A stretch of DNA of 64,000 nucleotides, taken from positions 1 through 64,000 of the forward strand of contig JANQEJ010000037.1 of NCBI GenBank assembly GCA_028278425.1, read 5' to 3'. Below, one piece after another: positions 3,067 to 5,423 of this stretch; positions within the stretch are counted from its first letter, which is position 1, and each line of letters starts with the position of its first letter. Under the pieces are notes generated by a model. The model ran no database searches. It was not told where the DNA came from and saw nothing but the letters and a program-made list of their open reading frames with translations. A program made the translations under genes and the position numbers. The DNA comes from Planctomycetota bacterium (GTDB lineage: Bacteria > Planctomycetota > UBA1135 > GCA-002686595).

Positions 3067-4431
3067 ATGAGCGCCGGCAGACTGTTCGGCACCGACGGCA
3101 TCCGCGGCCGCGCCGGCGAAGGTTGGCTCGCGCCCGCGCGCGTATCCGCGCTCGGACGGTCCGCCGGCCGCGTGCTCGGAAAGGGCAAGGGCGGACGCGC
3201 GCTCCTCGGACACGACGGACGCCATTCCGGCCCCGAGCTGGAAGCGGCCCTCGCGCGGGGACTCAAGGCGGCGGGCTTCGACAGCACGAGCGCCGGGCTG
3301 ATCACGACGCCGGGGCTCGCCGTGCTCGGGCGGCTCTCTTCCTTCGACCTGACCGCGATGCTCAGCGCCTCGCACAACCCGGCGGAGGACAACGGCATCA
3401 AGCTCTTCGACGCGGAAGGCGACAAGCTCGCCGACGAGGTCGAGGACGCCATCGAGGCCGACGTCCGCGGCACCTTCGACGAAGAAGAAGCATGGCCGGA
3501 CGCGGAGACGCCGCCGCACGATCCCGAGCTCGAGGAACGCTACCTGTCCCACCTCGTCGCGTCGGTCAAGGGCCTGAAGCTCGACGGCCTCGCCGTCGTG
3601 CTCGACGGCGCGAACGGCGGCGGCAGCCGGGTCGCTCCGCGCGCCCTGGGCCGCCTGGGAGCGCAGGTCATCACCACCGCGTGCGAGCCGGACGGGGACA
3701 ACATCAACGACGGCTGCGGCGCCACGCAGCCCGGTCACCTGCGCGAGGCGGTCCGTCTCCACGGCGCGGACCTGGGCGTCGCCCTCGACGGCGACGGGGA
3801 CCGCTGCATCCTCGTCGACGAAACGGGCGGCCTGGTCCACGGCGACGGCATCCTGACGCTCACCGCGCGCTACGCGCGGGAGACCGGCGACCTGACCGAC
3901 CCACGCATCGTCGCGACCGTGATGTCCAACCGCGGTCTGCACCGAGCCCTGCGGGACGTGGGCGTCGGCGTCGAGACCGTCGACGTCGGCGACCGGCGGG
4001 TGGTGGAGGCACTGCGGCGCGAGAAGCTCTCGCTCGGCGGGGAACAGTCCGGCCACATCGTCTTCGGCGCGGACAACTTCCACGTCGGCGACGGCATCTA
4101 CACGGCGCTGCGCGTCCTGGCGGTCATGCGGGCGACCGGAGAGAAGCTCTCCACCCTCGCCGCCCCCTACCAGCCCTTCCCCCAGGTGCTGGTCAACGTC
4201 CCGGTGGCGCAGAAGCCGAGCCTCGCGGAGCTTCCGGCGGTGGTCGAGGCGGTTCGCGCGATCGAAGACGACCTGGGCGAGGACGGGCGCGTGCTGCTGC
4301 GCTACTCCGGCACCGAGCCGCTGGCGCGCGTCATGGTCGAAGGACCCGACGCGGACTGGATCCAGGCGCGCGCGCACGAGCTGGCGGACCTTCTCGCGCG
4401 CGAGCTCGGGAGCGAGACCGCGGCGTCGTGA
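3067..4431 (+). CDS. glmM: Phosphoglucosamine mutase GlmM
   Basis: Converts glucosamine-6-phosphate to glucosamine-1-phosphate for UDP-GlcNAc, peptidoglycan and LPS synthesis. The 454-residue protein starts with the FGTDGIRG signature, carries the phosphoserine loop SASHNP with the catalytic serine at residue 102 (same position as in E. coli), the metal loop DGDGDR, and the C-terminal phosphate-binding RYSGTEP. A strong GGAGGAGG ribosome site ends 3 bases before the ATG. The stop overlaps the next start (GTGA), so tsaB is translationally coupled. Bringing ftsH, glmM and tsaB together gives a housekeeping cluster. Confidence 0.97.
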   Translation: MSAGRLFGTDGIRGRAGEGWLAPARVSALGRSAGRVLGKGKGGRALLGHDGRHSGPELEAALARGLKAAGFDSTSAGLITTPGLAVLGRLSSFDLTAMLSASHNPAEDNGIKLFDAEGDKLADEVEDAIEADVRGTFDEEEAWPDAETPPHDPELEERYLSHLVASVKGLKLDGLAVVLDGANGGGSRVAPRALGRLGAQVITTACEPDGDNINDGCGATQPGHLREAVRLHGADLGVALDGDGDRCILVDETGGLVHGDGILTLTARYARETGDLTDPRIVATVMSNRGLHRALRDVGVGVETVDVGDRRVVEALRREKLSLGGEQSGHIVFGADNFHVGDGIYTALRVLAVMRATGEKLSTLAAPYQPFPQVLVNVPVAQKPSLAELPAVVEAVRAIEDDLGEDGRVLLRYSGTEPLARVMVEGPDADWIQARAHELADLLARELGSETAAS

Positions 4432-5042
4432 CCGCGGTCGCGCTCGAGACTTCTTCCCGCCGCGGCTCCGTCGCCGTGTCGCACGGGGACGTGATCCTCG
4501 AGGCGTTTCTCGAGAACGAACGCGCGCACGCGAGCGATCTTCTCCCGCGCGTCGACGCGCTTCTCGTGGAAGTCGGCGCGCCCGCGATCGCGCAGGCGGG
4601 GCTCGACGCGATCGTCGTCGGCACGGGCCCGGGAAGCTTCACCGGGCTGCGCGTCGGCGTCGCGACGGCGCTCGGGCTCGCGCGCGGAACGGGCGGCGCG
4701 CTGCGCGGCGTCCCGTCTTTCGAAGCGCTCGCGTTTCACGAGCTGCGGCCCGGCGAGGTGGGAACGGTCCTGCAGGACGCGCGCGCCGGCGCGTACTATT
4801 TCGCGCGCTACCGGCGTACGGAAGACGACGTGGAGACGATCGTCGCTCCCTCGATCGTTCCAGCGGACGAAGCAAACGACCGCGCGCCGGAGGACGACGT
4901 CGTTCTCGGCGACGCCGCAGCCCCGCGCGCGGAAGCTCTCCTGGAGCTCGGAATGAAGCGACTCGAACGTCACGGCGCCCACGAGCCGAAGGACGTGGAA
5001 CCGCTCTACCTGCGCCCGTTCGCCGCGAAACGGCGCGGTTAA
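4428..5042 (+). CDS. tsaB: tRNA threonylcarbamoyladenosine biosynthesis protein TsaB
   Basis: TsaB is the inactive actin-like/ASKHA partner of TsaD in making the universal t6A37 tRNA modification. The 204-residue product begins at GTG 4428, overlapping the glmM stop. It shows the N-terminal strand with ALETSS, the hallmark GTGPGSFTGLRVG loop and the following ATALGLARG helix. Length is slightly below the usual 220-230 residues because the C-terminal region is short. The partner tsaD is not in this window. The terminator hairpin at 5051-5076 lies just beyond the stop and may serve both this gene and the convergent histone-like gene. Confidence 0.93.
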   Translation: MTAVALETSSRRGSVAVSHGDVILEAFLENERAHASDLLPRVDALLVEVGAPAIAQAGLDAIVVGTGPGSFTGLRVGVATALGLARGTGGALRGVPSFEALAFHELRPGEVGTVLQDARAGAYYFARYRRTEDDVETIVAPSIVPADEANDRAPEDDVVLGDAAAPRAEALLELGMKRLERHGAHEPKDVEPLYLRPFAAKRRG

Positions 5043-5050
5043 ACGAAACA

Positions 5051-5076
5051 TGCCCCCAAGCCGAGGCTCGGGGGCA
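5051..5076 (-). terminator. Hairpin terminator between convergent tsaB and the histone-fold gene
   Basis: An 11-base-pair stem with one mismatch and a 4-base loop (TGCCCCCAAGC / GCTCGGGGGCA). Read on the minus strand it is followed by a T-rich run (TGTTTCGTTT), so it mainly terminates the histone-fold gene, which ends at 5105. On the plus strand there is no good T-run, so it may only slow transcription leaving tsaB. Confidence 0.7.
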
Positions 5077-5104
5077 CGTTGAATCGACTCCGCTTGCGAG
5101 CGAC

Positions 5105-5341
5105 CTAGAGGTCGTGCGGACGAAGAGTCTTGCGGCCGTTGTTCAGAGCGCGACCCTCGGCCGACGCGATCATCTCACGCACGGCCGTGTCGAGTGCCCC
5201 GTAGAAGTCACCGGAGACGTTGATCCCAGCGCAGGCCTTCGTGCGGCTCTTGCTGATGATCAGGTCGACGGCTTTCTTCCGCCGCGAGGAGGCTTTCTTT
5301 GCCTTACGGGCGGGCTTTCTCTTGGCTTTCCTTCTTCCCAT
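5105..5341 (-). CDS. Small histone-fold DNA-binding protein with a basic N-terminal tail
   Basis: A 78-residue protein. Residues 1-23 are almost only Lys, Arg, Ala and Ser. Residues 24-78 look like a histone fold: helix 1 (24-37), loop with NVSGDF, long helix 2 (about 44-67), then GRKTLRPHDL. The last block matches the archaeal histone signature GRKT(I/L)xxxD, with Arg70 and Asp77 seven residues apart as in the archaeal R-D clamp, and Thr72 at the RT position. Helix 2 is about four residues shorter than in HMfB and helix 3 is nearly absent, as in reported bacterial histones of the helix-3-truncated type. It stands alone with a promoter and terminator, as expected for an abundant nucleoid protein. 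Fold assignment is from sequence pattern; DNA binding is inferred. Confidence 0.75.
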   Translation of the reverse strand: MGRRKAKRKPARKAKKASSRRKKAVDLIISKSRTKACAGINVSGDFYGALDTAVREMIASAEGRALNNGRKTLRPHDL

Positions 5342-5394
5342 GACTGTTCTTGCCTTGGTGTTGGTGGAGGGTTTGGAGCCGTGACGCGGGTGAA

Positions 5395-5423
5395 AGAATG
5401 TCGCCGCCCGCGCGGACTGTCAA
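5395..5423 (-). promoter_or_regulatory. Probable sigma-70-type promoter of the histone-fold gene
   Basis: On the minus strand a perfect TTGACA (5418-5423) is followed by exactly 17 bases and CATTCT (5395-5400), which keeps the A, T and final T of the -10 consensus. The start codon lies 53 bases downstream of the -10, giving a moderate leader. No other gene on this strand could use it. Confidence 0.6.

Follow-up and report, generated by a model that had tools for sequence, protein, structure and literature searches.

A predicted face-to-face histone with a basic N-terminal tail encoded by a Planctomycetota genome

Introduction

What is the small, highly basic protein encoded at this planctomycete locus, and what might it do to chromosomal DNA? 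Bacterial histones are few and come mostly from uncultured organisms; HBb and HLp have been studied in detail. The alpha3 histones are defined by an alpha3 helix of 3-4 residues and an alpha2 helix that is shorter by 4-5 residues (PMC11390915). Face-to-face (FtF) histones carry conserved R48, N52, R54, T56, D61 and K16, while bacterial dimer histones lack conserved R48 and N52 (PMC11390915). A sequence-only reading of the locus had proposed a histone fold with a nearly missing helix 3 and an H1-like basic tail, and had called the combination unusual. We examined this proposal in the stretch of 64,000 nucleotides analysed here (the window) and in the genomes of relatives.

Results

The gene and its product

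The open reading frame was borne out and could be assigned to the minus strand, which the earlier reading had not specified. Its principal parts are as follows.

5105..5341, minus strand: histone gene, 78 aa plus TAG stop
5264..5341, minus strand: N-terminal basic tail, residues 1-26, with 14 K/R and 1 D; predicted disordered, pLDDT about 50
5108..5263, minus strand: histone-fold core, residues 27-78; AF2 core pLDDT 92.6, TM 0.84-0.89 to HTkC and HLp
5108..5152, minus strand: putative FtF tetramer and RD-clamp residues R64, N68, R70, T72 and D77 and C-terminal L78, assigned by conservation with roles taken from PMC11390915 and PMC12701072

The frame opens with ATG (5341→5105) and is present as a single copy in the genome. 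Using tblastn, we found homologues in 46 of 61 genomes from the same family or order at 53-75% identity, and nucleotide identity by codon position was 82/84/59% across the 45 relatives with an equal-length core; this breadth and this pattern of conservation indicate a real, coding gene. The product has a pI of about 11.4 and consists of a 26-residue tail followed by LIISKSRTKACAGINVSGDFYGALDTAVREMIASAEGRALNNGRKTLRPHDL. Both sequence features singled out earlier were recovered: K, R, A and S make up 20 of the first 23 residues, and the C-terminal half contains GRKTLRPHDL, with R70 and D77 seven residues apart.

Histone fold

The full-length AF2 model superposed poorly (rmsd about 8 Å) because the tail is disordered, and the core was therefore predicted alone, reaching a pLDDT of 92.6. 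The AF2 monomer is predicted to adopt a histone fold comprising alpha1 (residues 31-37, seven residues), alpha2 (44-67, 24 residues), L2 (68-74) and an alpha3 limited to residues 75-77. The proposed near-absence of helix 3 and shortening of helix 2 are thus both supported by the model. These lengths agree with the alpha3 class, in which alpha3 spans 3-4 residues instead of about 10 and alpha2 is shortened by 4-5 residues.

Comparison with solved structures placed the core closest to alpha3 histones. Foldseek aligned it to HLp with a TM of 0.89 at 1.1 Å, and VIA-align gave Z 7.6-7.9 at 1.0-1.3 Å for alpha3 histones versus Z 5.6 or less at about 2 Å for nucleosomal archaeal and eukaryotic histones, the match to solved histones spanning all 52 core residues. 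A Z of 7.6-7.9 is middling in absolute terms for such a short helical chain, and the structural argument is carried by the separation between the two groups together with the sequence signature. Consistently, a profile built from 52 relatives matched HTkC (9F2C, 3.5e-9) and HLp (9QT0, 2.3e-6) in the PDB, while dimeric HBb scored 0.28; the significant matches were histones only. Pfam and NCBIfam yielded no match above the curated cut-off for the protein, and neither outcome that the sequence-only reading had named as refuting appeared: the modelled monomer is a histone fold, and no homology to a ribosomal or other small basic protein emerged. Secretin_N_2 and LplB matched below the cut-off and were rejected as its identity. 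Two other histone types were ruled out: a nucleosomal archaeal histone by the absence of any PF00808 (CBFD_NFYB_HMF) match in the genome and by the truncated alpha3, and the DUF1931 double histone because it needs two folds per chain, the protein having a single 52-aa fold and PF09123 not being found in the genome.

The face-to-face signature

We then compared the core with the residues that characterize FtF histones. The tetramer-interface arginine and asparagine (R48 and N52 of the HMM) and R54 have their equivalents in R64, N68 and R70. The RxTxxxxD clamp corresponds to R70, T72 and D77, and the alpha1 lysine K16 to K35, which HMMER paired with K17 of HLp, a DNA-contacting residue. R64, N68, R70, T72, D77 and K35 are invariant in 52 relatives, and L78 is nearly so. 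Nearly all relatives end exactly at D-L, the exceptions seen being L078 (D-I) and L073 (an extension). This chain end fits the Haloferax model, in which the carboxyl group bonded by the interface arginine belongs to the residue that follows the clamp aspartate (PMC11390915). Every FtF sequence feature that we tested is present, and signature and predicted fold together identify the protein as a bacterial histone of the FtF alpha3 family.

A close bacterial counterpart is HLp, the FtF histone of Leptospira perolatii (PDB 9QT0/9QT1/9QT2, PMC12701072), which has the same alpha3 fold (1.0-1.1 Å), carries R49, N53, R55 and D62 at matching positions, with R49, N53 and R55 lying in its tetramer interface (PMC12701072), and likewise stops one residue past the clamp aspartate. 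The two cores share 33% identity, but HLp is about 3 residues longer in alpha1/L1 and has a short N-terminal extension in place of the 26-aa K/R tail. Leptospira also lacks HU (PMC12701072), whereas the window genome encodes two HU-family proteins, and the histone is therefore not its sole architectural protein. HTkC of Thermococcus kodakarensis (PDB 9F2C, PMC11390915), the best profile match, shares the truncated alpha3 and belongs to the torus-tetramer family; it differs in being archaeal and tail-less and in having an alpha1/L1 longer by about 5 residues. The archaeal nucleosomal histones HMfA and HMfB share the handshake fold and the RD clamp but have a full alpha3 and a longer alpha2, and they score Z 5.4 or lower at about 2.2 Å against Z 7.6-7.9 for alpha3 histones.

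Tail variation, distribution and inheritance

The H1-like character of the tail was upheld in composition. Like H1-like and HC2 proteins, it is Lys/Ala-rich and of low complexity; those proteins lack a histone fold, and the likeness is compositional rather than a demonstrated homology. Weak HC2 matches occurred in 3 of 52 relatives. Across relatives, tail length runs from 0 to about 52 residues and the tail is rich in K, R, A and T without a fixed sequence, whereas the core reaches a mean column identity of 77% (in A3), far above tail conservation. The group to which the window protein belongs has tails of 16-49 residues (median 34) and a 52-residue core that is one residue shorter near L1. 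Protein starts are doubtful for L071, L090, L094, L101 and L087. Calling the combination of tail and truncated fold unusual overstated the case: short alpha3 and alpha2 helices define alpha3 histones, and basic, mostly positively charged tails are common in bacterial FtF histones (PMC11390915). In this class, then, a truncated fold that bears a tail is to be expected.

Zero-length tails were found in Krumholzibacteriota and other MAGs, where L095, L097, L100 and L112 encode an almost tail-less core of 53 aa starting at MIISK and offer natural tail-minus controls. Conversely, a free-standing 68-aa open reading frame with 44 K/R (MAKRKAAKRKTKRKAAKRKP...RKKA; L035:1278-1484, G000:C90:14159-14365), tail-like or H1-like in character, sits just upstream of an HU gene in the window genome.

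All but one of the 80 named loci encode a core of 52 or 53 residues. The core is present in 104 of the 121 genomes of the order, the 17 without a match including some incomplete assemblies, and 114 of 294 genomes sampled across the phylum match the family profile. The viral contigs searched contained no relatives and thus gave no sign of phage origin. Conserved gene order and presence across the order indicate that the gene is inherited vertically. Of the 63 loci that extend at least 2.5 kb downstream, 48 had GlmM, always on the opposite strand to the histone gene, and 44 had TsaB; in the window we take the two neighbours, from their sequences, to be glmM and tsaB.

3067..4431, plus strand: glmM (phosphoglucosamine mutase-like), conserved convergent neighbour
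4428..5042, plus strand: tsaB-like gene, conserved convergent neighbour
about 5047..5077, minus strand: GC-rich terminator hairpin between the histone gene and convergent tsaB

Promoter and leader

The terminator just listed consists of a strong hairpin with a terminator-like T-rich tail. Upstream, two conserved elements were identified.

5395..5423, minus strand: conserved promoter TTGACA-N17-CATTCT, with TTGACA in 49 of 75 upstream regions
5375..5387, minus strand: GCGTCACGGCTCC element, 7 nt past the -10 box; the family form, GCGTYACGGAWTC, begins 6-7 nt past it in many relatives

The perfect -35 box noted earlier is indeed an exact TTGACA (5418-5423), separated by a 17-bp spacer from CATTCT (5395-5400). 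In the window and 74 relatives, 49 of 75 sequences had TTGACA in the 200 bp upstream, compared with about 2 expected from shuffles, at a distance to the gene that varies among relatives. In the 7.8-Mb genome, the 29-bp pattern has just two exact occurrences. CATTCT matches the sigma-70 -10 consensus at 3 of 6 positions, which explains why a generic promoter scan found nothing. The GCGTYACGGAWTC element, allowing 2 or fewer mismatches, was present in 14 of 75 upstream regions versus 0.2 expected. The conserved promoter suggests high expression of the histone, as had been proposed. CATTCT, rather than TATAAT, is kept as the -10 hexamer across many genera, possibly reflecting a lineage-specific sigma preference.

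Rfam detected no family near the window gene or in five relative loci. In f6, a sister Planctomycetota family of the same order, the histone mRNA 5' leader carries a conserved two-helix RNA hairpin.

L114:4875-4959, L099:4895-4979, L104:4866-4950 and others (G389, G362, G341 and others): f6 leader hairpin examples

Compensatory changes occur at 4 of its 14 pairs, and its covariation score exceeded all slid controls and all 500 shuffles. A covariance model found one hairpin per genome in 20 genomes, in each case (20/20) immediately preceding the histone gene and sharing its strand; at least twelve are model-building loci that match by construction, and the independent part of the result is the lack of matches elsewhere in those genomes together with the remaining genomes. 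The hairpin is a candidate histone-specific regulatory leader in f6 and matched no Rfam family in the five loci tested; the covariance model did not find it in the window histone leader.

Discussion

The protein is very probably a bacterial FtF alpha3 histone that serves as a chromosomal nucleoid protein and would form DNA-wrapping tetramers with DNA-binding tails. As the fold suggests, monomers would pair in a handshake dimer, and two dimers would meet face to face, held together at both ends by R64, N68, R70 and the C-terminal residue; a torus tetramer is expected because the invariant residues match those of HLp and HTkC. By analogy with HLp, for which wrapping of about 60 bp has been shown (PMC12701072), about 60 bp of DNA would wrap the tetramer through the lysines and arginine of alpha1 and the L1/L2 loops. 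In the alignments, HLp and HTkC have 3-5 more residues in alpha1/L1, and with alpha1 of the window protein itself short, the DNA path or contacts could differ. The four disordered basic tails per tetramer may contact flanking or nearby DNA whatever its sequence and so increase affinity and compaction, a role suggested by their charged composition and the absence of a conserved tail sequence.

Other readings account for parts of these data. Judged by fold, the core could equally belong to a DNA-bending histone that remains strictly dimeric, like HBb of Bdellovibrio bacteriovorus (Bd0055; PDB 8CMP, PMC10627809, PMC11317129): HBb is equally close (Z 7.9, 1.2 Å), shares the alpha3 fold and the RKTxxxxD motif, and both classes occur in Planctomycetota (PMC11390915). 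However, the R48 and N52 equivalents absent from bacterial dimers are here R64 and N68, both present and invariant in 52 sequences, and HBb, which also lacks a long tail, shows no significant profile similarity (0.28 versus 1e-6 to 1e-9), leaving the dimeric reading very unlikely. A different division of labour, in which the fold just oligomerises the tail and the tail does the main work by linker-histone-like condensation, would suit the long tails of the lineage (median 34 aa) and the free-standing tail-like protein beside the HU gene. Conservation is nevertheless concentrated in the core, and tail-less relatives keep that same core; we consider this reading unlikely.

That the protein is merely histone-like and acts on RNA or the ribosome is the least probable of these readings, and highly improbable overall. 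Ribosomal proteins commonly have basic low-complexity tails, and the protein is small and very basic. Against this, histones are its only significant PDB profile matches, Pfam and NCBIfam return none above cut-off, and the fold fits solved histones along the whole core.

The FtF alpha3 family offers precedents for both the shortened helices and the basic tail; what is new is another member with useful natural variation. The family is dense within one order, and it supplies natural forms with and without a tail on a core that hardly changes. Its carriers include Pla86, Pla163 and Poly30, whose genomes are on deposit as complete chromosomes, so that the contribution of the tail and the control of histone dosage can be put to a direct test. 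A broader picture can be offered tentatively, as a possibility we would not yet favour: in Planctomycetota, an FtF histone passed on vertically may serve as a major chromatin protein that pairs a near-constant core with an H1-like tail evolving freely between 0 and about 52 residues, accompanied by free-standing tail-like proteins, the histone dosage in one family being set by a structured 5' leader RNA confined to the histone mRNA. If true, histone-specific mRNA control and tail evolution would have arisen independently of eukaryotes.

A further variant occurs in MAG 8_bin.21, where a histone homologue (L073:2409-2891) reaches 160 aa through some 80 additional C-terminal residues; this MAG also encodes an ordinary tailed copy (L060).
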